From Bacteroidales bacterium (GTDB lineage: Bacteria; Bacteroidota; Bacteroidia; Bacteroidales; VadinHA17): a DNA stretch of 40,018 bases. Positions 653 through 37,510 of the stretch are shown piece after piece (position 1 is the stretch's first letter; each line of letters starts with the position of its first letter). The notes beneath the pieces were generated by a model. That model did not search any database and was not told where the DNA came from. It saw only the letters and a program-made list of their open reading frames with translations. The position numbers and the translations under genes are program-made. The stretch is taken from positions 1 through 40,018 of the forward strand of contig JAAZBN010000077.1 in assembly GCA_012513795.1 (NCBI GenBank), in the 5' to 3' direction.

Positions 653-1429
653 ATGGCAAATGAAAAGAAACGGTATCCAAGCTTTGACGACATAGTATTC
701 GAAGGCCGAAATAAGGAATACGGCGCCTATGAGATCCGCAGGAAATATTCCAGGACAATGGTCATGTCAATCATTGCCGGGATCATTATAGTGCTTATCG
801 CCGCTATAGTACCTTATATCAAGGCCAAGAATATTGCTCAGGTCAAGCAGAGAGATGCCAACGAGGTTATAGCCGAGATGGCTAATGACATCAACCAGGA
901 AGCAGCCGCTCCTCCCCCCCCTCCGCCGCCCCCACCGCCATCAGAACAGCAAACAGTGGTGAAATACGTGGCACCTGTAATTGTTGACACAATCAAGCCC
1001 GAAGAGGCAACTCAGTTCATGACCGCTGACGACGTGGTTGAGACTGTTGTTGACGAAGAGGTGGTTGAGGTGATCGAACAGGTACAGGAGGAGGTGCAGG
1101 AAGAGGCCCCGCAGGAGGTGTTCGTGGTGGTTGAAGAGATGCCATCATTCCCGGGAGGGGATACGGAACTCTTCAAATTCATCTATGACAACATCAAGTA
1201 TCCCGAGATTGCCAAGGAAAACAACATCCAGGGCAAGGTGATCCTTCGCTTCTGCGTGACCTATAAGGGAAAGGTTGACCAGGTATCAGTCGTCAGGGGT
1301 GTTGACCCATCGCTGGACGAGGAGGCAATCAGGGTTATAAAGATGCTCCCGCTCTGGAAACCAGGCAAGCAGGGAGGTAAACCCGTGAACGTCTGGTACA
1401 GCGTACCTATAAGCTTCCAGCTTAAGTAA
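653..1429 (+). CDS. tonB: TonB-family energy transducer
   Basis: This protein carries proton-motive energy from ExbB/ExbD to outer-membrane TonB-dependent receptors. Residues 1-34 are cytoplasmic and include FEGRNKEYGAYEIRR, a typical Bacteroidota TonB N-terminus. Residues 35-56 are the single membrane anchor. Residues 87-96 are an unbroken run of ten prolines, followed by a Val/Glu-rich acidic stretch (about 125-162), which together span the periplasm. Residues 165-258 are the TonB C-terminal domain (YPEIAKENNIQGKVILRF ... PLWKPGKQGGKPVNVWYSVPISF), which contacts the TonB box. The 258-residue length is normal. It follows exbD by 11 bases and is followed by a strong terminator, so it is the last gene of the operon. 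The receptor at 37510 is one plausible client, though that is inference only. Confidence 0.95.
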   Translation: MANEKKRYPSFDDIVFEGRNKEYGAYEIRRKYSRTMVMSIIAGIIIVLIAAIVPYIKAKNIAQVKQRDANEVIAEMANDINQEAAAPPPPPPPPPPSEQQTVVKYVAPVIVDTIKPEEATQFMTADDVVETVVDEEVVEVIEQVQEEVQEEAPQEVFVVVEEMPSFPGGDTELFKFIYDNIKYPEIAKENNIQGKVILRFCVTYKGKVDQVSVVRGVDPSLDEEAIRVIKMLPLWKPGKQGGKPVNVWYSVPISFQLK

Positions 1430-3543: not shown

Positions 3544-3693
3544 ATATTTATCATTTATGTTATCAATACCCCGGTCTGCAATGTTGATAAATATCCCGGA
3601 TTCCTCCGTCTGCAGTCGGCAGTAATGAAGCCAATATACAAATATTTTAACTTAATTTGGGATAACTGCGCTGCAGTGAAAAATCAGGCAGAC

Positions 3694-4353
3694 ATGGGAC
3701 GATACATCCATAACCTTATCTCAGGTGGTGAAGGATTGCAGCTTGATTTCAAGTATTGCATCTCTGACCCGCAGAAGATAGCCCGCACTCTCTCTGCATT
3801 CTCCAATACTGCCGGAGGAAAGCTGCTCATTGGTGTGAGGGACAACGGATCTCTTGCCGGGGTAAGATCAGACGAAGAATTATACATGATTGATGCTGCC
3901 GCACGGCTCCACTGTGATCCGGAAGTGACGATCCGGACCCGGAATCATACAATCAATGGTAAGAATATCCTTGAGGTGGAGGTGCCCAAAAGCAAGATAA
4001 TCCCGGTGAAGGCAAAGGATGAGCATGGAAGATGGAAAGCCTATTTCCGGCAGAAGGATCAGAACTTTATGGCTGACAGAGTAATACTCCAGGTATGGCG
4101 ACGCAGTGCAAAAGCCAGTGGCCTTCTCCTCAGATTTGAGGAGACAGAGAACCTGCTGCTGAATCATCTTCGCAACGGCAGTCCGGTCACTGTGGCAGAA
4201 TTCAGAGCGCTTGCGGGAATCAGCGGACGTGTGGCAGAAAAGATACTGAGTGACTTTATTCTCTGCGGGCTTATTGAATATGAGGCCAGTGAAAGAGGTA
4301 TCTGCTACCGTCTGAGCAATGACTTTGGCACTGTGCCATTACTCAATCCTTAG
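3694..4353 (+). CDS. AlbA_2 (Schlafen-like) domain protein with winged helix, putative regulator
   Basis: This matches a Bacteroidota family annotated as an ATP-binding or helix-turn-helix protein with an AlbA_2 domain. Residues 1-140 hold the domain, with GEGLQLDFKYCISDPQKIA and the glycine-rich GGKLLIGVRDNG (41-52). Residues 150-205 look like a winged helix. A DNA- or RNA-linked regulatory role is inferred from the domains; the targets are unknown. The frame stays open upstream to an ATG at 3625, but I prefer ATG 3694. Family members begin right before this motif, and the 23 extra residues look non-conserved and AT-rich, with a near-consensus -7 box TTAATTTG at 3652-3659. The gene's last 15 bases overlap the end of the convergent SpoIIE gene. 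Confidence 0.8.
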   Translation: MGRYIHNLISGGEGLQLDFKYCISDPQKIARTLSAFSNTAGGKLLIGVRDNGSLAGVRSDEELYMIDAAARLHCDPEVTIRTRNHTINGKNILEVEVPKSKIIPVKAKDEHGRWKAYFRQKDQNFMADRVILQVWRRSAKASGLLLRFEETENLLLNHLRNGSPVTVAEFRALAGISGRVAEKILSDFILCGLIEYEASERGICYRLSNDFGTVPLLNP

Positions 4354-7300
4354 GCCTGCTACCAGTATGTCATCTGTCTGGGGAGACTGGCCCATCCAGC
4401 TGTCAAGACGCTCTGCGAGGATCTCCCGTTGCTTGCCCATCGGATATTCCCGTATATCAAGTATCAGCTTCCTCAGATTCTTCTTCAGGAATTTCTTACC
4501 CGTAACCCCGTTAAACTGGTCGGCATAACCATCAGTGAACAGATAATAGGATGACTCTCTCTCAAGTTTCCACCTGTGCTGGGTAAATACATGGCTGCCC
4601 TCAAGATGCATCCCTAAAGGAATCCTGTCACCATAAACCGTCTCAAGAAGATACTTTCCGCTTACAAGTGTTCCCTCATTGGGTTTGAATTCACCCCTCT
4701 CCCATCTTGATAGCTCCTGGTCATTCATCTCACGTATCCTGAAACACTGTGATGCAGCCCCTGAGTATTCTACAGTCCTGGCTGACCGGTCAATGGTCAG
4801 CAGAGATATATCAATCCCCTCCTTCTGCACCTCCGATTCCGGCAGCGGTTTGAAAGTCTTTGATAATTTGTTCCGGAATACGCGTAAGATTTCAGAAGTA
4901 CTCAGCGCCGGTGAGCTGGTGACTATCTCTGTGAGAAACGATTGGGCCATGATTGTCCGGAATGATGACGGGACTCCATGCCCGGTGCAGTCACCCACAG
5001 CAATAAATGTTCTATTTCCTGCATGCTTTACCCAGAAGAAATCTCCGCTGACGGTCTCCTTTGGCCTGTCAAAAACGAAACTGTTTGGGAATGCCTCACT
5101 TAACTGTTCATCAGCTGGCTGCATGCCTTTTTGAATTATCCCTGCATATTTTTCCAGCCTTTGCATCTCCTGTCCGCCTCTTTCCTTGGCCTCATTCCTT
5201 TGCTTAAGCAGGTTCTCAAGCTTTCTGTTCCTTATCTTAAGTCTCCTCGCATAGTACCTGATCAGACTGTAGATAATCCACCCTGCCAGGGCTATGTAGA
5301 GCAACCTGGCAACAAGAGATGCGTACCAGGGCTTCCACACGGTGAAAGAGTATCTCAGTTCCTCGCTTTCCAGTCCTGTAATGTTCCTCGACTTAAGGAG
5401 AAAGACATAATCGCCGGATGGCAGATTGGTGTAATCCCTCCAATTGCGCACTTCCCAGCCAGACCAGTCCCGGTCATATCCTTCAAGCTTCCATCTGTAC
5501 TCTCTCTTCCTCTCACCTACACATGAGGTTGTAGTCCAATGGAAAGAGATATTATTATCCCTGTGCTTTAATCTTATGCGTGGCGTTTCAGGCTGGATCA
5601 CTGCAGGTATCCTGAAGCCCTCATCTGTGGTAGTGAAGAATGTGCCGTCCATCAGGGGGGGTGCGTCACCGGCGTTGATCCGGGTAAAAAATGTACTGCA
5701 TTCACCATATCTGAAGGCAAGCTTCGTTTTATCAAGGATAAAAATGCTGTTCCCCTTGGCAAGCCAGACAGAACCGTCAACGTATGCTACACCCCTGGTG
5801 GCAATATCCGGAAGGAAGTCGAACTGGCGCCTGAAGACTACATGTCCCAGCCGGGTGGTGGTGACCAGGGCATCAAAATTACGGGTATCATACCCTGACA
5901 GGATGATCTCACCCTCTGGTGTCTGAAAAAGATTATTTACCTGAACATTGTCAAAGGTATTGCCCGTCAGGTTATGGTCTTTTTCAAACAAGTCGCTCTG
6001 ACGGTTGTAATGAAATATTCCTTTCCCGGTACATAAATAGAGCACATCATCTATTAAGGCAATGCTTCTGATTGTGTCACAGAGGATTCCCTGTTCCTGT
6101 CCGTAGTTTATAAAGGTTGTGTCATTCGGCTCACAATGCATGCGGATAAGTGCTGATTGCGATGCGGCAACCAGCCACCATTCTCCCGGAGCTGATTGTT
6201 CAATATCTGTTACGGCACCTTGGAAATGGCCTTTGAAGGTATTGTAAACCACCCATTCATAATCATCGTACTTCAGTAGTCGGATAGTCCCGTCATCTGA
6301 ACCTGCAACAAGAAGAGTAGAGTCTTCCATCGCTCTCCTGACAGCAGTAAAACTCATTTTGCTTAAATACCGGTTTGCATCACCGTCACTTTCTATCTGC
6401 AAAATGCCGTTGGAAGTGGCTGCCAAAAGTACCCCTCCGAGATATAGATCATTGATAATCAGGTCATTGACTTTGGATCCGTGGTTTCTGATCCTCTTGA
6501 ATCGCATAATTCCTTGTCTGTCTGAATAGTTTTTCAAGAGGCCGTCATCGGTGCCGACAAAGACTGAATCAGCAAAACTGATGATGGGACCTGCCGGGCT
6601 GGATATTCCGGCTGCGCTCCCGAATTCTCCTGCCGGCAGCGAGACCCAGGCTCTGTTAATGAATCCCCTGGTACAGAACCATAACTGGGAGTTGGACATA
6701 TGGTCGCAGTACATGGCAGTAACAGACGACTCTCTGATACTTGCTGTCCGGTCTGAGATGTGCTGCAGAAGCTTGCCCTCGTGGCTGAAGATGTATACAC
6801 CGCCATTCAGTCCAAGTCCGACAGCAATCTTATTACCGGGAAGGATGACCACGTCAGTCATAGTCCCCTTCTTCAGCAATTCATTGTTTCTTTTGCCGAT
6901 AAAGTCCTCAGCCAGGGTACCGGTCCTGAAATTGAAGAGCATCAGACCCTTGCCAGCAGCAGCAATGAGCAGGTTATCCCTGTCATAGGGCAGGAGTTTC
7001 ACAAAGAGGGTGTTCACTGCCTTTTCTCCACCAGCAATGCGCACTACATTGCCATCCCTGTATTCAAAAAGACCTGCCCTGTCGTCAGCAATAAAAAGTC
7101 GTCTTTCAGCAACCACCAATTTTCTCGCCGAGGCAAGGCTATATTCGTCTTCCAGGTCAGTCATTGAAATAGAGTCGGTTCCCGTTGCCAGCCTGTAGAG
7201 GTGTTTACCGTCGACAAAGGAGACACCGTTGCTGTCAACTGCTATCGAACTGATGGTCAAGATCTCCGCAACAGCGGAAGAGTCACTTATTCGATTTGAC

Positions 7301-7653
7301 AATGAACAATATGCTATTTTTCCTGACTTGTCAGGCTGCAGAAATCCCAGGTCTTTTTCGCCACCGGCAAAGACAATTCCTCTGGTATCTGTTGCCAGGA
7401 CCGTTACCCTTCCTGCTCCTGATGCAGGTATAAGATTCCAGTTGCTGCCGTCGAAGGAGAGAATTCCGCCTCCGTCATTGCCGAAATACATGACCCCTCT
7501 GTGGTCCATCGTGACACACAGGTTTCCCAGTTCACCGGGAGTCTCAGCCGCATCGATCCAGCTGACCAACGGGGTTCCATGCCTGTTGATCTGCGAATAT
7601 GCTGACAGTGAAAAAAACAAAAGGAATAGTACCAGATGAAGCCCCTTCTTCAT
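4339..7653 (-). CDS. Periplasmic propeller/Y_Y_Y sensor fused to a SpoIIE-type PP2C phosphatase
   Basis: This 1104-residue membrane protein probably senses an extracytoplasmic cue and answers by dephosphorylating a cytoplasmic Ser/Thr phosphoprotein, such as an anti-sigma-factor antagonist. Residues 1-20 are a signal peptide. About 40-690 are beta-propeller repeats of the two-component-regulator type (many GxxxxFDGxxW-like and LxxATxxGI-like blades). 698-772 are a Y_Y_Y domain (YRWKLEGYDRDWSGW, LPSGDYVFLLKSRN). 776-800 are one membrane helix, 802-840 a coiled coil, and 855-1103 a SpoIIE/PP2C domain. Metal-binding aspartates are visible at D871 (SGDFFW), D888 (GDCTGHGVPSSF), D1041 (FTDGYADQFNG) and D1094-1095 (QTDDILV), so the phosphatase looks intact. 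The gene is divergent from the C25 protease gene. No cognate anti-sigma or STAS protein is in the window. Confidence 0.93.
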   Translation of the reverse strand: MKKGLHLVLFLLFFSLSAYSQINRHGTPLVSWIDAAETPGELGNLCVTMDHRGVMYFGNDGGGILSFDGSNWNLIPASGAGRVTVLATDTRGIVFAGGEKDLGFLQPDKSGKIAYCSLSNRISDSSAVAEILTISSIAVDSNGVSFVDGKHLYRLATGTDSISMTDLEDEYSLASARKLVVAERRLFIADDRAGLFEYRDGNVVRIAGGEKAVNTLFVKLLPYDRDNLLIAAAGKGLMLFNFRTGTLAEDFIGKRNNELLKKGTMTDVVILPGNKIAVGLGLNGGVYIFSHEGKLLQHISDRTASIRESSVTAMYCDHMSNSQLWFCTRGFINRAWVSLPAGEFGSAAGISSPAGPIISFADSVFVGTDDGLLKNYSDRQGIMRFKRIRNHGSKVNDLIINDLYLGGVLLAATSNGILQIESDGDANRYLSKMSFTAVRRAMEDSTLLVAGSDDGTIRLLKYDDYEWVVYNTFKGHFQGAVTDIEQSAPGEWWLVAASQSALIRMHCEPNDTTFINYGQEQGILCDTIRSIALIDDVLYLCTGKGIFHYNRQSDLFEKDHNLTGNTFDNVQVNNLFQTPEGEIILSGYDTRNFDALVTTTRLGHVVFRRQFDFLPDIATRGVAYVDGSVWLAKGNSIFILDKTKLAFRYGECSTFFTRINAGDAPPLMDGTFFTTTDEGFRIPAVIQPETPRIRLKHRDNNISFHWTTTSCVGERKREYRWKLEGYDRDWSGWEVRNWRDYTNLPSGDYVFLLKSRNITGLESEELRYSFTVWKPWYASLVARLLYIALAGWIIYSLIRYYARRLKIRNRKLENLLKQRNEAKERGGQEMQRLEKYAGIIQKGMQPADEQLSEAFPNSFVFDRPKETVSGDFFWVKHAGNRTFIAVGDCTGHGVPSSFRTIMAQSFLTEIVTSSPALSTSEILRVFRNKLSKTFKPLPESEVQKEGIDISLLTIDRSARTVEYSGAASQCFRIREMNDQELSRWERGEFKPNEGTLVSGKYLLETVYGDRIPLGMHLEGSHVFTQHRWKLERESSYYLFTDGYADQFNGVTGKKFLKKNLRKLILDIREYPMGKQREILAERLDSWMGQSPQTDDILVAGLRIE

Positions 7654-7777
7654 ACCCTGAACAATCTCCCTGAATTTAAGGTTAAATATACAAATTCAAT
7701 TTATATAACGTCAGCAACAGCGTCAGGCATATAAATTGAGGTATTTTTTAATTATCTTGGCTGAGTATATTCAGGTT

Positions 7778-10700
7778 ATGAGGGTTAGTCATAGGACAAC
7801 CGCATTCATTGCGGCGTTGATGATTCTGTTAAACATGCCTGATGCAGAATCACAGGCACAAGCCGGAAGGTCATCCGGAGACAATTCCGGGAGGGGATAC
7901 CCTGACCGGCCCTCATCCATCAACTATAATGCCGAAGAACCACATCTGCTTCATGTCACTGACCAGGGAGTGAATTACCTGAGAATGTTCCTGCCCGGTC
8001 ATCATCATACCTCTGAGACAGGCAAGCCTGAATTGCCCGTTTACAGCAGGCTGGTGGAGGTACCTGACGGGATGGAACTGGTAGTAACTCTTTCGGATGT
8101 GGTTTCACGGAAGATAAAACTTGACGACAAGGGCGTCACTGAGCCAGAGCTTTTTCCTGCCCAGCCTGCCAGAACAAAGAACGAAAGTCCGCAACAAAAG
8201 GTTACCGTTAAGGACAAAAAAGCATATGAGGCTAGTGAGATCCTCAGGCATGATACTGTCACAGTAAGCCACGAAGGGATCTTCAGGGGACAAAGGTTAG
8301 CCAATATTGCTGTATACCCGGCCTTCTACAATCCCAAAGGAAGATATGTTGAGCTGATCACTTCAATGACTCTCACTATAGAATACAAACCCACCGACAC
8401 CAAGGGAGAAGATGATGAAATTATTCCTTTTAATAAAGGCGGCTATGCTTCTGATGCTTATGTCCCAGGCTACTCAGACAAACCGCTGCATATGATTATT
8501 GTGACCGATTCCCTTTTCACCCGGTTTCTCTCTCCCCTGATCATGTGGAAAAACCTGAAAGGAATCCGGACAACGGTAATACACAGGGATGCCGGTCCGC
8601 CGGATACGGTTTTCAAATACCTGAAGGAAAGTATCTCCGATCTCTATTTCAGCCTGCAGGCGAGAGGCATATCGGTACAGTATCTGCTGATAGCCGGCGA
8701 TCAGTCAATCATACCAACCTCGCGGGGCACAACAAACATATCTGATCTTTACTACGGTGAGTTTGACGGGATGGGCGACTACATCCCTGAGCTTTTCATT
8801 GGCAGGCTGCCAGCCAGTGACACCACTCAGCTAAAAGGCATGGTAAAGAAAATTATTGATTATGAAACACTCAATTACCTGCCGGATAATGATTTCTGGG
8901 CAGGTGCCCTGGTGACAGCAGGCAACGCACCCGGCTTTGAGCTTTACATGAATGGCCAGGTCTCATACATCTACAATAATTACCTTAAGCAGGACGCCTC
9001 ACTCAATGCCATCAGATGGCTGTATCCCGATTCACCACAGAAGGATGACTCCCTGAAGACTGTATTCAACAAGGGATTGAGCATACTAAATTACACGGGA
9101 CACGGTGAAGCAACCGGTTTCAGTGATCCGGTCCTCAATACATCCATGGTTAAAAACCTGGCCAACGAGAACGAATACCCGCTTATTATAGCCAATGCCT
9201 GCCGGACCGCACAGATAAACGTTGCATCCTGTTTTGCATCAGCTATCACTGCCGCTCCGGGAAAAGGAGCCATAGGATATATCGGCTGCACTAACGACTC
9301 TTACTGGAGTGATGACTTTTTCTGGGCTGTCGGTCCCGGGACACCAGGACCTGACGTCACCTACGAAACAACAGGAAAGGGTGCTTTTGACCACCTGTTT
9401 CATACTCATAATGAGCCGCCTGGAGAATGGTATCATACCATGGGGCAGATAAATTTTTCAGGGAATATGTCTGTTTCGGCAAGCACAAGCCCGCGAAAGA
9501 AGTACTATTGGGAAACCTACATACTTCTTGGTGATCCCTCTCTCTCCCCGGTGATAGGGAGACCTGACACGTTTGATATTGAACTGCCGGACAAGGTACC
9601 CATGTCACTAACCTCACTGAACTTCTTTGCCAAACCCTTCTCCTATGCTGCCATATCGGATTTTGACACTCTCTGGGATGCCAGACACGTAAGTCCCTCA
9701 GGGAATGTAAGCCTTGCTATTCCGGGTGGGATCAAAGACTCCTGCCTGGTGGTGGTCACCGGGCAGAACATGATTCCATTTTATAAGACCGTTCACTTCG
9801 GCACTGTATCTGAACCATTCATCACAGTGAACAACATCGTTCTCGATGATTCAGAAGGCAACGGTGACGGCATTCCTGATTATGGTGAGTCTATAAACCT
9901 GAAGGTATCCCTGAAGAACATTGGTGGATCACCTACCTCCACACTTGCCGCACAGTTAATTGCCACATCAGGAATGATTACAGTGGAGGCCGGCACATCA
10001 GCAATCGGAGTACTTGATCCGGGTGAGACTCTCAACATCTCCGGCAAGTTTATTTTCAGTGTCTCTGACGCTGTTGAGGACGGTGAGCTTGCCTCCCTCC
10101 TGCTTAACCTCAGTGATAACGGCGAGGAGTACAGGTTCGGTATTGATATGACGCTCCATGCTCCTGTTTTGCGGATAGTGTCTGCCGTGCATGACGATTT
10201 GTCTCTCGGAAATGCCAATTTCCTGCCTGACCCGGGAGAGACCATCTGTCTGAAGGTCAGGGTGAAGAATGAAGGCTCCTCGGCTGCCAGCGGAACAGTA
10301 TCCATTATGCCGGCCGGAGCATGGCTTACAATAGCGGAACCGCAGCTTGAGACTGACACGCTGCAACCGGGTGAAGAGAAGGATATCTGTTTTGAGGCAA
10401 CTATTTCACTGCTGGCCGGATCAGGTCTGGTGATACCCTATGATATCCGTTTCGTCTGCGGGAATTATGAGGCTTCCGGAAGATGGTCAATAAGCACGGG
10501 CAAGACACGAGAGACATGGGAATTCAACAGGTTTGATGTCTTCCCATGGATGCAGGATGAAGAGTATCCATGGATTATCACCTCTGCAACAGCATTTGAG
10601 AATATACACTCTGCCAGATCAGCTCCCATCCCTGACAAAACAGAATCGGCCCTGGCTATATATGTAAATAATCCCGTTGCCGACACACTATCATTCTATG

Positions 10701-11512
10701 TCAGGGTTTCATCTGAACCCACCTATGACCAGCTTACCTTCAGGGTCGACAGCATTGTTGACATGCAGATATCAGGAGATACTCCCTGGGCACTGAGAAA
10801 AAAGGTGCTCAAGCCGGGGGTTCACCTCCTTGAATGGATATACTCCAAGGATGTATCACTATCAGGAGGAATGGATGCGGCATGGCTTGACCAGGTATCC
10901 TTTCCGGATATCTCATTCCTGGAGGCTGATCTCCACATAGACACGGTTTATGCTCCCGAGACTACGGGAATGCTCAATGACGTGACGGTTAGAGGCAGGG
11001 TGATCAACTTCGGAAGGAATGCGCTCACCAGCTTCCCGCTGGCATATTTGGTGAATGACGGAGACCTTGTTCATGAGACTTTCTACAGGAAGATTGACCC
11101 GGGCGACACTGTAGACGTCTCCTTCACAAAGAAAATAAGTATTATTAAAGATGTTCCTTACAGCATCTCAGTGCTGAGCCGTCTGCCCGAAGACGCCTAT
11201 CCGGGCAATGATACGGCAACGGTCTCCTTTGTGATCTCCGGCACCGGGCCTGACCTCACTGAAGAAAAACTGACCGTACTCCCTAATCCTTTCAGGGATA
11301 GTTTTACCATTGAGTTTGACTACGAGGGAGGTGGTGATGCGGATATTGAGCTGATTGACATCACCGGAAGAGTGATGACACGCCTTTCGGCCGGACTCTC
11401 TGCCGGGAAGAACCGGATTACTGTCAATTGCTCTCATCTGCCCCCGGGCGTCTATACTCTTCGTCTTACCCTGGAAGGGAAAAGCATCAGCATGCGAGTT
11501 GTCAGGCAATGA
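7778..11512 (+). CDS. Gingipain-like C25 cysteine protease with type IX secretion signal
   Basis: This is a secreted endopeptidase, probably displayed on the cell surface. The start is ATG 7778; the frame extends upstream only to a TTG at 7736, which would put 14 unrelated residues before the signal peptide (MRVSHRTTAFIAALMILLNMPDAES). A propeptide-like region (~30-225) precedes the C25 domain (~235-590). Counted from ATG 7778, the catalytic His is H442 in LNYTGHGEATGF and the catalytic Cys is C475 in PLIIANACRTAQ, at the positions seen in Arg-gingipain, followed by GAIGYIGCTNDSYWSDDFFW. About 600-1160 are beta-sandwich/CARDB-like repeats. The last ~80 residues (PNPFRDSFTIEFD ... ITGRVM ... 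LPPGVYTLRL) are a type A T9SS sorting domain. The length of 1244 residues fits such proteases. An HD-domain gene follows 7 bases downstream. Substrate specificity cannot be read from the sequence. Confidence 0.93.
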   Translation: MRVSHRTTAFIAALMILLNMPDAESQAQAGRSSGDNSGRGYPDRPSSINYNAEEPHLLHVTDQGVNYLRMFLPGHHHTSETGKPELPVYSRLVEVPDGMELVVTLSDVVSRKIKLDDKGVTEPELFPAQPARTKNESPQQKVTVKDKKAYEASEILRHDTVTVSHEGIFRGQRLANIAVYPAFYNPKGRYVELITSMTLTIEYKPTDTKGEDDEIIPFNKGGYASDAYVPGYSDKPLHMIIVTDSLFTRFLSPLIMWKNLKGIRTTVIHRDAGPPDTVFKYLKESISDLYFSLQARGISVQYLLIAGDQSIIPTSRGTTNISDLYYGEFDGMGDYIPELFIGRLPASDTTQLKGMVKKIIDYETLNYLPDNDFWAGALVTAGNAPGFELYMNGQVSYIYNNYLKQDASLNAIRWLYPDSPQKDDSLKTVFNKGLSILNYTGHGEATGFSDPVLNTSMVKNLANENEYPLIIANACRTAQINVASCFASAITAAPGKGAIGYIGCTNDSYWSDDFFWAVGPGTPGPDVTYETTGKGAFDHLFHTHNEPPGEWYHTMGQINFSGNMSVSASTSPRKKYYWETYILLGDPSLSPVIGRPDTFDIELPDKVPMSLTSLNFFAKPFSYAAISDFDTLWDARHVSPSGNVSLAIPGGIKDSCLVVVTGQNMIPFYKTVHFGTVSEPFITVNNIVLDDSEGNGDGIPDYGESINLKVSLKNIGGSPTSTLAAQLIATSGMITVEAGTSAIGVLDPGETLNISGKFIFSVSDAVEDGELASLLLNLSDNGEEYRFGIDMTLHAPVLRIVSAVHDDLSLGNANFLPDPGETICLKVRVKNEGSSAASGTVSIMPAGAWLTIAEPQLETDTLQPGEEKDICFEATISLLAGSGLVIPYDIRFVCGNYEASGRWSISTGKTRETWEFNRFDVFPWMQDEEYPWIITSATAFENIHSARSAPIPDKTESALAIYVNNPVADTLSFYVRVSSEPTYDQLTFRVDSIVDMQISGDTPWALRKKVLKPGVHLLEWIYSKDVSLSGGMDAAWLDQVSFPDISFLEADLHIDTVYAPETTGMLNDVTVRGRVINFGRNALTSFPLAYLVNDGDLVHETFYRKIDPGDTVDVSFTKKISIIKDVPYSISVLSRLPEDAYPGNDTATVSFVISGTGPDLTEEKLTVLPNPFRDSFTIEFDYEGGGDADIELIDITGRVMTRLSAGLSAGKNRITVNCSHLPPGVYTLRLTLEGKSISMRVVRQ

Positions 11513-12209: not shown

Positions 12210-12956
12210 CTAAAGCTCCCTGATCTGGATATTCCTGAACCACACATCATCACCATGATCCTGCAACGCAATATATCCCTCAGCAGCAATATTTGCCCAG
12301 TTGGGATTTTCACCCGGCCATTTGCTGTCAAGAATGATTTCGTTGAATTCAGGTGTCCAGAGATGATATTCAAGAACCGTTTCACCGTTCTGAATGTGCC
12401 ATACTGACCCCTTGTATACTTTTATTTCAGCAGTGTTCCATTCACCTGCAGGCCTGGCATTCTGTGGCACAGCCGGTATCAGGTCATAGAGTGCGCCTGC
12501 CTTGCGGTTTCCGTTCTTGCCAGCCTCGGCATCGGGATGACGCTCATTATCCAGGATCTGCATCTCAGGCCCTGTCTTCCAGGGGGCCGACCATTCAGGT
12601 GATTCCTGAACCAGATAGATGATGCCGCTGTTGCCGCCCTCAGAAATCTTCCATTCAAGCTTCAGGTGGAAATTGGAGAATTTCTTATCATAAAGGATAT
12701 CACCGCCCTGTCCGCCAGCTTCACCTTTTCCTGAACCGATGCAATGAAGCGTCCCGTCAACAATCTCCCATCCCTGTTCGGGAAATGCGGTCTTGTTGTA
12801 GCCCCTCCAACCCTGGGTTGTTGTGCCATCAAAAAGGAAGGTCCATACTTCGGCTTCAGTCGATTTTTTCTCGGCGCTCTTCTTTTCCTTTCCTGATCCG
12901 CAGGAGAAAAAAGTAGCAGCCAGGATAAGTACTAACAATGTCTTTATCAGTTTCAT
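12210..12956 (-). CDS. DUF1080 (3-keto-disaccharide hydrolase-like) lipoprotein
   Basis: DUF1080 proteins have a concanavalin-like fold, and several are linked to cleavage or hydration steps on 3-keto-glycosides. A lipoprotein signal is clear (MKLIKTLLVL ... TFFSCGSG, lipidated Cys19), placing it in the periplasm or on a membrane surface. A Lys/Glu-rich linker follows. The domain spans about residues 36-248, with FLFDGTTTQGWRGYN, GDILYDKKFSNFHLKLEWKI, GGNSGIIYLV, GPEMQILDNERHPDA, GALYDLIPA, AGEWNTAEIKV and GYIALQDHGDDVWFRNIQI, all core motifs of the family. It lies 40 bases downstream of the Tat-exported Gfo/Idh gene on the same strand and ahead of a terminator, so the two form an operon. A role in glycoside breakdown after C3 oxidation is inferred from family and context. 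Confidence 0.93.
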   Translation of the reverse strand: MKLIKTLLVLILAATFFSCGSGKEKKSAEKKSTEAEVWTFLFDGTTTQGWRGYNKTAFPEQGWEIVDGTLHCIGSGKGEAGGQGGDILYDKKFSNFHLKLEWKISEGGNSGIIYLVQESPEWSAPWKTGPEMQILDNERHPDAEAGKNGNRKAGALYDLIPAVPQNARPAGEWNTAEIKVYKGSVWHIQNGETVLEYHLWTPEFNEIILDSKWPGENPNWANIAAEGYIALQDHGDDVWFRNIQIREL

Positions 12957-12996: not shown

Positions 12997-14481
12997 CTAT
13001 GCAGGCATATCAGGAAGTGACCAGCCGCTGCGATAGGTATGCCTGATCATTTCGGCTGCAAACTGCTTCGCATTGATCGGATCAGTATATTTCCTGTCAA
13101 ATGTCGGATGGCCGTCAGTAATGCTGAAATGATCCTCAATGCAGATCTTTATGGTCTCTTCGTCATTGATATTGGTGAACTCCATCTTCTCACCATTCCA
13201 TTCCAGGGTTTTGTTCAACCCCTGAAGCCTTACTGCGAGCACACCCATAACAACCATCTCATTGAAAGGTCCGGCTTCAGAGAAGTCAGATTTGGTCATC
13301 ACCCTTGACTCCGCCGGCTCCTTGCATGCACGGACCCAGTCCATCTCATGGCTGGTGGTTACACGGCGTTCGGTCTTCGGTGAATTGGGCACCCGGCCTG
13401 AAAGGAGCCATGGATCACGGCCATAGCAGCCGCAAATCAGCGTATCCTTTGAACCGTGGAAGATACACCCTCCATCCGGATCATAAGCTTTGCCGGCCGG
13501 CCACCCTTCCGGTTTCATTGGCAGTATACCTCCATCGGTCCAGGTAACCTCAACCTCGGGGTACTTTACCTTAGATCCTCTCTTCACCTGCCTTTCGGGG
13601 AAGACCAGCTTGACCGACTGGGCATTGGGGGCACAGTCAGTAAGCAGCAGTGTTGAGTTACCCTCTGCCTTCGTGGGGTATTGGAGCTTCAGACCCTTGA
13701 AAACAGGATGGAGAATATGGCATGCCATGTCACCCAGGGCACCTGTACCAAAGTCCCACCATCCCCTCCAGTTCCAGGGAGTATAGATGCTGTGGAACGG
13801 ACGCATCGGGGCAGGACCGATAAAGAGATCCCAGTTGAGGGTGTCAGGCACCCATTCGCCCTTTGCAGGCCTGTTCAGGCCCTGAGGCCAGATTGGCCTG
13901 TTGGTGAATGTCTCTACCTTCTTAACTTCCCCTATTTCACCATTCTGGATCCATTCAATAATGAGGTTTACACCCTCTCCCGAGCTGCCCTGGTTGCCCA
14001 TGGAGGTGGCAACCTTGTGCTCCGCGGCAAGCCTGGTGAGCAGCCGTGACTCATAAACACTGTGAGTGAGAGGCTTCTGCAGGTACACATGCTTGCCAAG
14101 GGTCATTGCCTGAGCAGCTGACAGTGCATGGGTATGGTCAGAGGTGGCAATGATGACCGCATCAATAGACTTGCCCATCTCATCATACATCTTCCTGAAA
14201 TCCCAGTACTTCTTTGCTGTGGGATACGCATCAAAGACCCTTTTTGAATACCCCCAGTCAACGTCACAGAGTGCAACGATGTTCTCTGAGGAAGCCACAT
14301 TCCTGATGTTTGTGGCGCCTACGCCGCCGATACCTATACCGGCAATGTTCAGCTTGTCACTGGGAGCGCGGTGACCCAGGCCGCTGACAACGCCGGATGG
14401 CAGGATGGTAAGGCCGGCTATTGCGGCACCCGTGGTGCCCACAAATGACCGCCTTGTGATTGTTCTTTTGTCCTCTTTCAT
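12997..14481 (-). CDS. Tat-exported Gfo/Idh/MocA-family oxidoreductase
   Basis: This is an NAD(P)-dependent sugar oxidoreductase of the glucose-fructose oxidoreductase/inositol dehydrogenase type. The N-terminus MKEDKRTITRRSFVGTTGAA is a Tat signal (Arg10-Arg11), so the enzyme is probably exported folded with its cofactor bound, as known for Zymomonas glucose-fructose oxidoreductase. The Rossmann motif is GIGIGGVGATN (48-58), and the conserved Lys-Pro is in YLQKPLTHSVYE (Lys136). The C-terminal half carries the family's substrate domain (MGNQGSSGEGVN, WRGWWDFGTGALGDMACHILHP). The start is placed at ATG 14481 because the 40 residues encoded upstream are not signal-like. It is the first gene of an operon with the DUF1080 lipoprotein. 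Similar pairs occur in pathways that oxidise a sugar hydroxyl to a keto group. The substrate is unknown. Confidence 0.92.
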   Translation of the reverse strand: MKEDKRTITRRSFVGTTGAAIAGLTILPSGVVSGLGHRAPSDKLNIAGIGIGGVGATNIRNVASSENIVALCDVDWGYSKRVFDAYPTAKKYWDFRKMYDEMGKSIDAVIIATSDHTHALSAAQAMTLGKHVYLQKPLTHSVYESRLLTRLAAEHKVATSMGNQGSSGEGVNLIIEWIQNGEIGEVKKVETFTNRPIWPQGLNRPAKGEWVPDTLNWDLFIGPAPMRPFHSIYTPWNWRGWWDFGTGALGDMACHILHPVFKGLKLQYPTKAEGNSTLLLTDCAPNAQSVKLVFPERQVKRGSKVKYPEVEVTWTDGGILPMKPEGWPAGKAYDPDGGCIFHGSKDTLICGCYGRDPWLLSGRVPNSPKTERRVTTSHEMDWVRACKEPAESRVMTKSDFSEAGPFNEMVVMGVLAVRLQGLNKTLEWNGEKMEFTNINDEETIKICIEDHFSITDGHPTFDRKYTDPINAKQFAAEMIRHTYRSGWSLPDMPA

Positions 14482-14612
14482 TTTACAGGTGGTTAGTAAT
14501 TCCAAACAAACCTTAAAAGTAGAAATTTCATCGGTAAAACAAAACGCGGCCCTCTGCATAATTGTCTCCCCCGCTCCCAAAAAATAAGTAAATTGCATCA
14601 TGTGAAAAAAAT

Positions 14613-15092: not shown

Positions 15093-16244
15093 ATGACAAG
15101 ACTCAGGATGGGCATGATTGGTGGCGGAGAAGGCTCTCTTATCGGGCCTGTTCACCGCATGGCAGCCCGGATTGACGGTATGGCGGAACTTGTCTGCGGA
15201 GCCTTCAGCAGTGATCCCGCCATCTCTGAAATCACTGGAAAAAGAGAAGGCATCCCTGCCTCGCGGATATATAACACCTGGCAGGAAATGATCAGAAATG
15301 AAGATCAACTGCCCTCTGACGCCAGACCTCACTTTGTTACAATTGTCACCCCCAATCACCTGCATTACGGTCCGGCCATGATGGCCCTGGAGGCAGGTTT
15401 TCATGTAATGTGCGACAAGCCTCTTTGCATCAGCGTGGCTGAAGCTGCCGAACTGCAGGAGGTGGTTGAAAGAACAGGACGATTGTTCTGTCTGACACAT
15501 AATTACACAGGCTACCCCATGGTCAGAAGGGCTCGGGAAATGATTCTTGGAGGTGAACTGGGAACCATCAGAAAGGTAATCGTTGAGTACCTTCAGGGTT
15601 GGATGTCAACTCCCGTTGAGAATACTGGCAACAGGCAGGCGGCCTGGAGAGCTGACCCCGGCAGGGCCGGGATAGCCGGCGCAATGGCTGACATAGGGAC
15701 TCATGCATTTAACCTTGCTGAATATATCACTTGTCAGGAGGTGACAGCCCTATCGGCTACTCTCAGGTCAGTAGTGCCTGGAAGAATTCTGGATGATGAC
15801 GGTACTGTAACACTTCTCTTTGGCAATGGCATGAACGGTACTTTGATTGCAAGCCAGGTGGCAACAGGTGAGGAGAATAACCTCTCTGTCAGGGTCTATG
15901 GCGAAAAGGGTGGTCTGACCTGGCAGCAGATGGAGCCCAACACCCTGACACTGATGTGGAGTGACGCTCCGATACAGCTTATCCGCACCGGCACCACCTT
16001 CCCGGGAACAGGCAGGGCAGCACCGATGCATACCCGGATACCGGCCGGGCATCCCGAAGGATTCATCGAGGCCTTTGCTAACCTCTACAGGAATTTTATG
16101 ATGCACATATCAGCCCTGGATGAAGGAAGGAAACCGGATCCGCTGGCTGACTACCCTGGAATAAATGAAGGTTTACGTGGAATGAAGTTCCTCGAAGCCG
16201 TTGTGGCCTCCTCCGCCAGGAAAGCTGCAATTACTGATCTCTGA
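15093..16244 (+). CDS. Cytoplasmic Gfo/Idh/MocA-family oxidoreductase
   Basis: This is an NAD(P)-dependent sugar or cyclitol oxidoreductase. It starts directly with the Rossmann fold (MTRLRMGMIGGGEGSLIG, residues 1-18) and has no signal peptide, unlike the enzyme encoded at 12997-14481. The conserved Lys-Pro is in HVMCDKPLCISV (Lys109). The substrate-domain motif GAMADIGTHAFNLAEYIT is clear and contains the usual catalytic-site Asp/His region. The 383-residue length is typical, and GGAAGAG precedes the ATG. It ends only 3 bases from the stop codon of the convergent TIM-barrel gene, leaving no room for a terminator. A role downstream of the exported enzymes, such as reduction of an imported keto-sugar, is plausible but inferred. 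Confidence 0.92.
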   Translation: MTRLRMGMIGGGEGSLIGPVHRMAARIDGMAELVCGAFSSDPAISEITGKREGIPASRIYNTWQEMIRNEDQLPSDARPHFVTIVTPNHLHYGPAMMALEAGFHVMCDKPLCISVAEAAELQEVVERTGRLFCLTHNYTGYPMVRRAREMILGGELGTIRKVIVEYLQGWMSTPVENTGNRQAAWRADPGRAGIAGAMADIGTHAFNLAEYITCQEVTALSATLRSVVPGRILDDDGTVTLLFGNGMNGTLIASQVATGEENNLSVRVYGEKGGLTWQQMEPNTLTLMWSDAPIQLIRTGTTFPGTGRAAPMHTRIPAGHPEGFIEAFANLYRNFMMHISALDEGRKPDPLADYPGINEGLRGMKFLEAVVASSARKAAITDL

Positions 16245-25060: not shown

Positions 25061-26524
25061 CTAAACCTCAAGCTGGACCTCAGTGGCATGGAGTTTAAGC
25101 ACTTTTGTGTTTCCTCCTGTTGCCAGGTTCGGATCAAAGGGAGTGTTGTTTTTCCATGAACCGCATGTAAAGTCAGGTATATTGATGGAGGCTGACCTGT
25201 TGGCTACTGACCACTCGCTCAGTGGAGTGATCACGCTCCAGAGGGCTGCGTCATATACATCCTGGTCAAGAGGCAGTCCGTTGCGCAGACAGTCTATCAG
25301 CCGCCAGTCCATGATGAAATCCATGCCGCCGTGGCCGCCTATTGCCCTGGCCATCTCTCCAACCCTCTTTACTATCTCCGGCGTGTATTGCTCTTCCAAT
25401 GCTTTCTGATCTTGTGGTGACATCCACGTGTGTCCCAGTGCTATTCTGGCAGGTGAGGGATATTTCTGTGCAAATCCTTTGGTGCCGCTGAGCAGGTGTA
25501 TCCTGGAGTATGGCCTTGGGCTTGAGACATCATGCTGGATCATTATGCTCCTTCCCAGATTGGTCTTTACAAGCGTGGTGTTCATGTTTCCCCGGTATGC
25601 TTTCCCAGCATATGGAGCATAGAACGGATCCTCCCCGGCCAGTTGCTCCAGATCCTTTCCCATTACAAAATCATTGGACGAGAGTGAGGTAAGGTAATCC
25701 ATTCTGTCTCCCCTGTTTATATTCATGATCTGGCAGATGGGCCCCAGCCCGTGAGTAGGATAGAGATTTCCGTTGCGAACATTCTCTTTCAGCCTCCACA
25801 TGTCGGCATAACCGTTCTTGTCATAAGTCCAGTCCCATCGCAGGTCATGTATGTAGGCTCCCTCACCATGCACAATATCTCCAAAAAGCCCCTGGCGAGC
25901 CATGTTGAGCGTAAGAAGTTCAAAGAAGTCATAGCAGCAGTTTTCAAGCTGCATGCAATGCTTCCGGGTTCGCTCAGAGACCTCTACAAGCTGCCAGCAT
26001 TCATCTACTGTCTTTGCAGCCGGGACTTCCAGTGCCACATGCTTTCCGGCCTCCATGGCATAGGTTGCCATAGGCGTGTGCCACTCCCAGGGAGTGCATA
26101 TATAGACCAGGTCAATGTCCGGATCATCACACAGACCCTTCCATGCCTCCCCGCTGCCACTGAAGCTTCTTGCCTGAGGCAGTCCGAACCTGGAGAGAAG
26201 AACCTGGATTTTATCAACCCTGTCATGGTACTTGTCACACAGGCCGGCTATCTCCACACCCTCAATATGTGCCATTCTTTCAACCGCACCCGGTCCTCTC
26301 ATCCCAAGGCCGATGAGACCTACCCGCACCTTATCAAGCGGGGGTGCGGCATAACCTGACATATTGAATCTCTGGGTATGAACTGTTTCTGCAGCCTCCC
26401 TTACGACGGCCATTGCTTCTTCTTTCTTTGCACTCCGGGAACACGCAGTAACCGCTGAGGCAGTAATGGTTCCTGCCCCGGCAACTGCAGCAGTGCGGAG
26501 GAAATTCCTGCGATTAGTTTTCAT
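25061..26524 (-). CDS. GH109-like, Tat-exported Gfo/Idh/MocA-family glycosidase
   Basis: GH109 enzymes use a tightly bound NAD cofactor to cleave alpha-N-acetylgalactosaminides by transient C3 oxidation and elimination. The Rossmann motif is GLIGLGMRGPG (69-79). GKHVALEVPAAKTVDEC carries Glu-Val-Pro where ordinary Gfo/Idh enzymes have Glu-Lys-Pro, and MQLENCCYDFFELLTLNMAR plus GLFGDIVHGEGAYIHDLRW are the features I associate with GH109. The N-terminus has a Tat motif (NRRNFLRTAAVAGAG), and Cys28 in AVTACSRS may be lipidated, so it would be a Tat-exported lipoprotein. The length is 487 residues. The assignment to GH109 rather than a sister clade is by pattern memory. It is a single gene; about 220 bases downstream to the peptidase gene hold nothing recognisable apart from a short palindrome CATGATCATG. 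Confidence 0.85.
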   Translation of the reverse strand: MKTNRRNFLRTAAVAGAGTITASAVTACSRSAKKEEAMAVVREAAETVHTQRFNMSGYAAPPLDKVRVGLIGLGMRGPGAVERMAHIEGVEIAGLCDKYHDRVDKIQVLLSRFGLPQARSFSGSGEAWKGLCDDPDIDLVYICTPWEWHTPMATYAMEAGKHVALEVPAAKTVDECWQLVEVSERTRKHCMQLENCCYDFFELLTLNMARQGLFGDIVHGEGAYIHDLRWDWTYDKNGYADMWRLKENVRNGNLYPTHGLGPICQIMNINRGDRMDYLTSLSSNDFVMGKDLEQLAGEDPFYAPYAGKAYRGNMNTTLVKTNLGRSIMIQHDVSSPRPYSRIHLLSGTKGFAQKYPSPARIALGHTWMSPQDQKALEEQYTPEIVKRVGEMARAIGGHGGMDFIMDWRLIDCLRNGLPLDQDVYDAALWSVITPLSEWSVANRSASINIPDFTCGSWKNNTPFDPNLATGGNTKVLKLHATEVQLEV

Positions 26525-36829: not shown

Positions 36830-37510
36830 TTGAAGAAGTTTTTGGTGATTTGTGTCATGCTGCTCTTTGCGTTCCTGTCAGTGAACGCTCAGAGTGGCGG
36901 AAAAAGGTATATCCAGATTGACGGACTAACTGCTAACGAAAATGGGTATATTGTTCCGGATGTCAGTATATATTCAAAGCATCTGCGCCGTGGGGCAGCA
37001 AGTGACCACCGTGGGATCTTTTCCATAATAAGCACTCCGGGTGATACCGTTTTCTTCAGCGCCATAGGCTTCAAATCAACCCTGCTGACAATACCTGTCA
37101 ATGCCTTGGGTGACCACTATACAACTGATGTTATAATGGTTACTGACACTATCCAGATAGGTGAAGTACTTGTTTTGCCATGGAAGACCTATTCGGAATT
37201 CAAGAGGGCAGTGCTTGAGAACAAACCCGTGGATCCTTTGATGGAGAACATGGAATACAATCTTGCCATGGTACAGCAACAGATATGGAGTGACTTGTCT
37301 CCCACCCCCGGCGAGGCTTACCGTTTTACCATACAACAGATTTCAAACGACCTCTATACCAGGGGACAGTTGCCTGCCAATAACCTGCTCAATCCCTTTG
37401 CCTGGCAGAAATTTGTCAAGGGTGTAAAGGATGGGATGCTGAAGAATGAGCCATCCAAAACCACCAGGGTAAAAAAGGCAAAGAAGCGCAAGAAAAAAAA
37501 GAGTGACTGA
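36830..37510 (+). CDS. Secreted carboxypeptidase-regulatory-like domain protein, TTG start
   Basis: The signal peptide (MKKFLVICVMLLFAFLSVNAQ) starts at a TTG codon; no ATG or GTG lies upstream in frame, and the next ATG (codon 10) falls inside the hydrophobic core, so TTG 36830 is the best start. Residues 25-105 resemble a carboxypeptidase D regulatory-like beta-sandwich (GYIVPDVSIYSKHLRRG, GIFSIISTPGDTVFFSAIGFKS). The following part (FKRAVLENKPVDPLMENMEYNLAMVQQQIW) is seen in Bacteroidota exported proteins of unknown role. The C-terminus is strongly basic (VKKAKKRKKKKSD). The stop overlaps the ATG of the TonB-dependent receptor by one base (TGATG), so they are translationally coupled and probably act together at the outer membrane. 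Confidence 0.8.
   Translation: MKKFLVICVMLLFAFLSVNAQSGGKRYIQIDGLTANENGYIVPDVSIYSKHLRRGAASDHRGIFSIISTPGDTVFFSAIGFKSTLLTIPVNALGDHYTTDVIMVTDTIQIGEVLVLPWKTYSEFKRAVLENKPVDPLMENMEYNLAMVQQQIWSDLSPTPGEAYRFTIQQISNDLYTRGQLPANNLLNPFAWQKFVKGVKDGMLKNEPSKTTRVKKAKKRKKKKSD

Follow-up and report, generated by a model that had tools for sequence, protein, structure and literature searches.

We have analysed a contig of 40,018 nucleotides from a Bacteroidales bacterium (JAAZBN010000077.1 of assembly GCA_012513795.1; C16 in our numbering), which is taken in its entirety and called the window below. On its minus strand, at 4339-7653, lies an open reading frame (ORF) with an ATG start for a protein of 1,104 amino acids, in which a propeller/Y_Y_Y sensor is joined to a PP2C/SpoIIE phosphatase. 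We propose that this sensor-phosphatase probably dephosphorylates one or more SiaC-type proteins of a SiaABC-type switch rather than feeding a classical phosphorelay. SiaC is the likely target because the phosphatase domain is SiaA-like, because SiaB and SiaC genes are present in the same genome, and because the phosphatase co-occurs with these genes in the order and is linked to them in relatives.

From the N to the C terminus, the protein consists of a signal peptide, two beta-propellers, a Y_Y_Y domain, one transmembrane helix, a helical linker and a phosphatase domain with its metal aspartates. An N-terminal hydrophobic helix (residues 1-21, positions 7591-7653; hydropathy peak at residue 4, model helix 2-17) is taken as the signal peptide. 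The first propeller covers about residues 27-340 (6634-7575), where solved single propellers align to about 26-340, and the second about residues 350-685 (5599-6606), with approximate borders drawn from the strand pattern of the model and from the match of the 4a2l ectodomain over 27-775. The Y_Y_Y domain (about residues 690-773, 5335-5586) exceeds the Pfam cut-off (PF07495 at 714-772, E 4.8e-9) and has a phmmer match to 4a2l at 688-762. The single transmembrane helix (about residues 779-800, 5254-5319) coincides with the top hydropathy window (780-798) and a model helix (780-815), and the model then gives a helical linker (about residues 801-846, 5116-5253), of low confidence at 808-830. The SiaA-like phosphatase domain (about residues 858-1103, 4345-5082) is identified by Pfam (PF07228, E 6.8e-14, 52.7 bits against a cut-off of 25), NCBIfam, phmmer, trees, alignment and fold. 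The AlphaFold2 model was built from 36 aligned sequences, i.e., the window protein and 35 from named contigs, 20-52% identical, and has a mean predicted local distance difference test score (pLDDT) of 86.6, with linker residues 808-830 below 50. In the Pfam scan, we found no histidine kinase or regulator domain and, at E<=10, no match to Reg_prop (PF07494); a WD40 match falls slightly below the cut-off. Overall, this is an inner-membrane protein with the ectodomain outside and the phosphatase inside, and the exact ORF, the Pfam matches and the model layout all agree with the initial annotation, which had described a propeller/Y_Y_Y sensor fused to a SpoIIE phosphatase. Against the 52%-identical orthologue of Bacteroidetes bacterium SZUA-524 (L107), third codon positions of the propellers and the PP2C domain differ at 0.62-0.63 and first and second positions at 0.28-0.38; that is, third positions are about twice as divergent.

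For the phosphatase domain, the best solved phosphatase match by fold is the PP2C domain of SiaA, 6k4e (Z 31.8, root-mean-square deviation (rmsd) 2.1, 245 residues, 24% identity, Foldseek rank 16), which is also the best solved phosphatase in the phmmer sequence search. The top NCBIfam match of the whole protein is again SiaA (NF038263, 118.5 bits). Residues D871, D888, D1041, D1094 and D1095 are kept in 36/36 homologues and D948 in 35/36, and we take these six to be the metal ligands of the domain. The claim that all the metal aspartates are present thus holds.

In Pseudomonas aeruginosa, SiaB adds and SiaA removes the phosphate at T68 of SiaC, as stated in a part of PMC7647112. The source assembly of the window (3.13 Mb, 317 contigs, 88% complete) encodes both partners. 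A profile search gives eight SiaC genes, all with the N-[T/S] phosphosite (four Thr, four Ser), while the SiaB family has one gene, on contig C127 (L096 1475-2707), with two domains in 410 amino acids, the second of which lacks the GGAGLG motif and has a degenerate G-box. A double SiaB is found in L115 too. In 14 control genomes there are no hits to SiaC or SiaB, and no GGDEF was found in the 88% complete assembly. Hits to SiaC, SiaB, STAS and HATPase_c_2 all lie on other contigs and none on the window contig, in agreement with the earlier statement that no anti-sigma or STAS partner is adjacent. Candidate STAS-type substrates, on whose presence in the genome the initial annotation depended, do exist, namely the eight SiaC and two STAS genes. 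The genome has six SpoIIE genes, three of which share the propeller/Y_Y_Y build; the other two of this build carry recognisable Reg_prop repeats, unlike the window protein. Only one SiaC gene of the source genome adjoins a SpoIIE gene; it lies on contig C305, and its last 4 bases are also the first of a SpoIIE gene other than that of the window. Downstream of this SiaC gene (L095 3203-10134), the SpoIIE protein with an RyR domain is followed by two large proteins, of which the one scanned is TPR-rich; at L095 8302-13793, a gene for an ATP-binding cassette (ABC) protein runs divergently from those of SiaC and a SpoIIE protein.

We have further surveyed 295 genomes of the order. The sensor-phosphatase query is matched in 139 of them at E<=1e-30; among the matches listed, many run nearly end to end and others cover the sensor only (about residues 5-830). 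The propeller/Y_Y_Y-SpoIIE architecture is common in the order, and the build is not a one-off. SpoIIE is found in 221 genomes (the best ~10 hits being taken per genome), SiaC in 122 and SiaB in 124 (117 over the cut-off), with both SiaC and SiaB in 121. Among the matches listed, 68 genomes have a relative that extends through the phosphatase, read by hand as a match to query residue 1073 or beyond, and of these SiaC is present in 68, SiaB in 67 and an RsbW-like orthologue in 58; for the other 227 genomes the numbers are 54, 57 and 91, respectively. Matches ending earlier were excluded from the 68 (G016, G018, G038, G089 and G264 at about 971-977, G163 at 894), and all six of these genomes have SiaC. 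Of the 47 genomes with sensor-only matches (ends at 808-839, again among the matches listed), 13 are without SiaC. This set, likewise read by hand, leaves out G279 (match at the end of a contig) and is not purely made of kinases, as one of five fetched loci (L232) ends like a phosphatase.

Gene order in relatives points in the same direction. In G049 (L087) and G159 (L222), a propeller/Y_Y_Y-SpoIIE gene stands directly ahead of siaB-siaC, and a small gene for a coiled-coil protein, its membrane helix being judged by eye, completes the run. In G114 (L088), the run comes with a TPR-SpoIIE gene instead. Two more genes of the window's build are linked: the one in L115 meets siaC tail to tail with an overlap, and the one in L142 lies 1.1 kb before siaB with one gene between. 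Among the 30 top scorers of the SiaB search, SiaC is found in 27 loci, SpoIIE in 26, both in 26, and an ABC transporter gene in 23. A set that recurs at L060 1-3525 and similar loci combines a PAS-like SpoIIE with SiaB, SiaC and a large transporter of the ABC-2 type, whose start, MSEEILKALMQ, is conserved.

Several observations weigh against SiaC as the target. The SiaA score of 118.5 bits misses the NF038263 cut-off of 700 bits by far, and the first SpoIIE-domain tree has the phosphatases of the window and of L107 at the end of a long branch; they also deviate at near-constant positions (G896S, D945E). The two genomes with the complete run, G049 and G159, belong to one genus, and a third genome of this genus (G252) has the siaB-siaC run without a preceding SpoIIE gene. 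Of the 80 window-relative loci (L107-L186), SiaB is found in four and SiaC in four, so this class of sensor is seldom linked to them; neither lies beside the window gene or any of the four orthologues L089, L090, L091 and L107. The presence of SiaC also goes with high numbers of SpoIIE hits, 100/100 genomes with at least six of them having SiaC, and the co-occurrence counts are not independent because the genomes are related. In the second of the trees described below, four changes are needed to account for the SiaBC-linked rows, and the branch of SiaA is long. Finally, the genome also has two STAS genes and small RsbW-like proteins, and a STAS-like gene accompanies 2/80 relatives (L129, 2.8 kb away; L115, 8.0 kb away).

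If SiaC is the target, a periplasmic cue would alter the propeller/Y_Y_Y ectodomain, and the change would pass via the single transmembrane helix and a dimeric helical linker, switching the PP2C domain on or off; a linker model is given in a part of PMC12143880. A SiaB-type kinase would phosphorylate the N-[T/S] site of the SiaC-type, STAS-like protein or proteins encoded elsewhere in the genome, and the PP2C domain would remove the phosphate from one or more of them. Unphosphorylated SiaC would then bind and switch an effector other than a diguanylate cyclase. Here we infer the action on SiaC, the direction of control and the dimeric linker mechanism.

One form of this proposal is a cross-wired hub, in which several SiaC proteins are served at once and specificity comes from expression or location. 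Six SpoIIE and eight SiaC genes with one SiaB gene found would fit such a hub, as would the fact that only the C305 SiaC gene adjoins a SpoIIE gene. However, in other genomes a phosphatase gene is often accompanied by both SiaB and SiaC, and some SiaB genes may have escaped the source assembly, which is 88% complete and split into 317 contigs. We consider the hub possible but rather unlikely.

As to the cue, the best solved match of the ectodomain is the periplasmic sensor of BT4663, 4a2l (Z 32.5, rmsd 4.4, 690 residues, 16% identity, Foldseek rank 1). Two of the relatives with sensor-only matches were scanned (L228, L230), and both have Reg_prop, Y_Y_Y, HisKA and HATPase; a third locus of the five fetched, L232, resembles the phosphatase at its end. 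The comparison with known hybrid two-component sensors thus bears out that the sensor is of the hybrid-kinase kind, as had been proposed. In L220 and L221, Reg_prop and Y_Y_Y are fused to a class III cyclase. By domain content, one ectodomain type serves class III cyclases and phosphatases as well as histidine kinases, and so can be regarded as an exchangeable part; part of PMC12143880 proposes exchangeable sensor ectodomains for other sensors. As a separate observation, SiaB kinase genes in L220, L221 and L224 adjoin class III cyclases, two of which are fused to Reg_prop/Y_Y_Y sensors.

The fold raises the question whether the protein is a glycan-sensing regulator, a reading put forward in the initial annotation, which could hold alongside the action on SiaC. 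BT4663 is a heparin/heparan sulphate sensor, and ectodomains of hybrid two-component systems (HTCS) bind oligosaccharides (PMC3243724, in part). Moreover, among the 17 window ORFs scanned by Pfam out of 79 listed, there are a 3-keto-disaccharide hydrolase (12213-12956), Gfo/Idh oxidoreductases (13000-14601 and 15093-16241), a GH109-type ORF (25064-26524) and a TonB-plug ORF (37510-39930). On the other hand, no SusC/SusD-type pair was recognised among these 17 ORFs, the Reg_prop repeat is not recognised, identity to BT4663 is just 16%, and PorZ, a protein of the type IX secretion system (T9SS), is also a weak match (Foldseek rank 19, TM-score 0.15). The neighbour conserved beside orthologues is, besides, a secreted peptidase. 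We regard a glycan cue as possible, though less likely than not.

This neighbour is a C25 (gingipain-like) peptidase with a T9SS sorting tail (7736-11512, plus strand), divergent from the sensor-phosphatase gene in the window, L107, G112, G294 and G212, i.e., in 5/5 of the orthologue group; a functional link is conceivable from Pfam and the orthologue loci. A C25 peptidase is also near relatives in G244 and G038, and a partial one lies about 4 kb off in G248. The tail is found in 5/6 scanned C25 peptidases, the exception being that of G294. Because the divergent peptidase is kept, the window gene may monitor surface proteolysis or type IX secretion. Given the conserved peptidase and yet the carbohydrate ORFs of the window, the cue may come either from surface proteins or secretion, or from glycans. 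On its other side, the gene meets an AlbA_2 (Schlafen) protein tail to tail (3625-4353, plus strand, identified by Pfam), which overlaps its 3' end by 15 bases and is kept in L107 and G112. A TIR-like label for neighbour genes was dropped; the single one scanned gave TPR-type matches only.

The initial annotation suggested partner switching, and the logic stands, with SiaC and a SiaB kinase as the best-supported partner, not an RsbV/anti-sigma pair. In a classical RsbU-type switch, the phosphatase would act on an RsbV-like STAS protein, freeing a target from an RsbW-like kinase. The genome does have the components: besides the two STAS genes, two of its seven HATPase_c_2 hits are small stand-alone RsbW-like proteins. 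RsbW-like orthologues are also enriched with the phosphatase (58/68 against 91/227, among the matches listed), and STAS-like genes lie near the two relatives named above. However, 10 of these 68 genomes are without this orthologue and none lacks SiaC, while 48 genomes have the orthologue without SiaC, and in the control genome of Bacteroides ihuae there are hits to STAS and HATPase_c_2 and none to SpoIIE.

The SpoIIE-domain trees bear on the same question. We took 19 SpoIIE loci of SiaC-less genomes from the higher-scoring rows, so the sample favours strong PF07228 scorers; one of them (G069) has five SpoIIE hits. These 19 genes form one side of a branch with support 96/96, and 100/100 in a second tree built without the source genome's own SpoIIE gene on C226, a very long branch. 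The window phosphatase is on the opposite side with the SiaBC-linked SpoIIE, where neither tree resolves a SiaC-specific clade; long-branch warnings concern C226 and SiaA in the first tree, and the source genome's C305 gene and SiaA in the second. Searched with the STAS and RsbW proteins of the source genome, the 19 loci give an RsbW-like match in 15, a STAS-like gene in 12, and either in 16; in four (L197, L198, L204 and L205, within L187-L206) the RsbW-like match falls within the SpoIIE protein. RsbW matches are absent from all 80 window-relative loci. This suggests that, to judge by the sequences, the SpoIIE phosphatases of the order fall into two kinds by partner, SiaC-linked and RsbW/STAS-linked. 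Overall, the classical RsbV/RsbW partner is ranked below SiaC, and we consider it improbable. Least probable of all is an inactive or scaffold phosphatase domain, for which the long branch and the unusual residues close to the second metal motif could be cited, as the metal aspartates are retained in the window protein and its homologues and the codon positions show constraint.

Returning to the SiaC-directed switch, we looked for what SiaC may act on. In the SiaC-SiaD structure, SiaD contacts extend from R74 to D91, including I81, S82, D83, Q86 and M88 (from a part of PMC8457831). The sequence Y..LV.Q.K.ITKISDRLQ.KL, encoded by the small gene downstream of siaC, agrees with this contact stretch. 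A stalk model from three sequences matched 13/295 genomes, ten at E<=1e-4; the seeds G049, G114 and G170 count among the 13 and are three of the ten. By position and by eye, six of the seven non-seed matches adjoin SiaB-SiaC, G134 being the exception. A bare [RK]xSDxxQ scan was near chance, with 11 matches in 1547 proteins against 7 in shuffled ones, so only the longer stalk context is informative. The stalk is a putative SiaC docking motif, and the stalk-alignment search found none in the source genome. In G157 (L216 898-1758), a 287-residue protein combines a SiaD-like stalk with a class III cyclase (PF00211, E 5.9e-56) beside SiaB and SiaC genes; it would parallel SiaD, but with a different cyclase type. 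In G170, the stalk is followed by a SpoIIE tail. Coiled-coil proteins with a SiaD-stalk-like motif are seen beside siaB-siaC in L087, L088, L209-L214 and L222 (G049, G114, G170, G159, G252, G099, G263, G199), and those of G170 and G263 run on into a SpoIIE-like stretch.

Based on these analyses, we tentatively suggest, with slightly less than even confidence, that in this order SiaABC may serve as a broad partner-switching network which takes input from many sensors and works without cyclic di-GMP (c-di-GMP). Transmembrane phosphatases on two-component-type sensors would converge on SiaC, and SiaC would act on new effectors, some via a SiaD-like stalk (K/R-x-S-D-x-x-Q within a longer stretch). 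These effectors would be a small membrane protein with a coiled coil, a nucleotide cyclase of class III (stalk-fused in G157) and possibly a large ABC transporter. The window gene would be one input, possibly one that monitors cell-surface proteolysis or type IX secretion. In the open-licence literature searched, we found no description of a SiaABC network without a diguanylate cyclase, or of SiaABC outside c-di-GMP in the phylum of Bacteroidales; nor did the literature searched yield a paper describing a SpoIIE protein of the propeller/Y_Y_Y architecture. The finding divides the SpoIIE phosphatases of the order into two kinds by partner and narrows the target question to eight SiaC proteins and one kinase, which can be tested in vitro. 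It also points to SiaABC signalling outside c-di-GMP; the network level is the interesting part, the kind of system itself being known.

Among known systems, SiaABCD of Pseudomonas aeruginosa shares with the window system the PP2C fold and the best sequence match, as well as a SiaB kinase and SiaC with the N-T/S site in the genome; it differs in that the window ectodomain is made of two propellers and Y_Y_Y, the genes are dispersed, no GGDEF is found, and the protein falls below the SiaA family cut-off. The HTCS of Bacteroides (BT4663, BT3049, BT4673) share the fold of the ectodomain along some 690 residues, whereas the window protein has no histidine kinase or regulator domain and no recognised Reg_prop, and its output is a phosphatase. 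The RsbU/RsbW/RsbV modules, including the SpoIIE proteins of SiaC-less genomes, are alike in placing PP2C behind a helical linker and in the partner-switch logic, but there RsbW/STAS-like genes are adjacent or fused, and they occupy the other tree branch. In the Campylobacterota pathways of sensor-PP2C, STAS-kinase and STAS protein (PMC9239204, in part), a periplasmic-sensor PP2C is likewise predicted to work through a STAS protein, though the predicted output is a c-di-GMP enzyme and the phylum is different. The direct family consists of the other propeller/Y_Y_Y-SpoIIE proteins of the order, which have the same architecture, and within it the window protein, whose propellers escape the Reg_prop model, is a divergent member.

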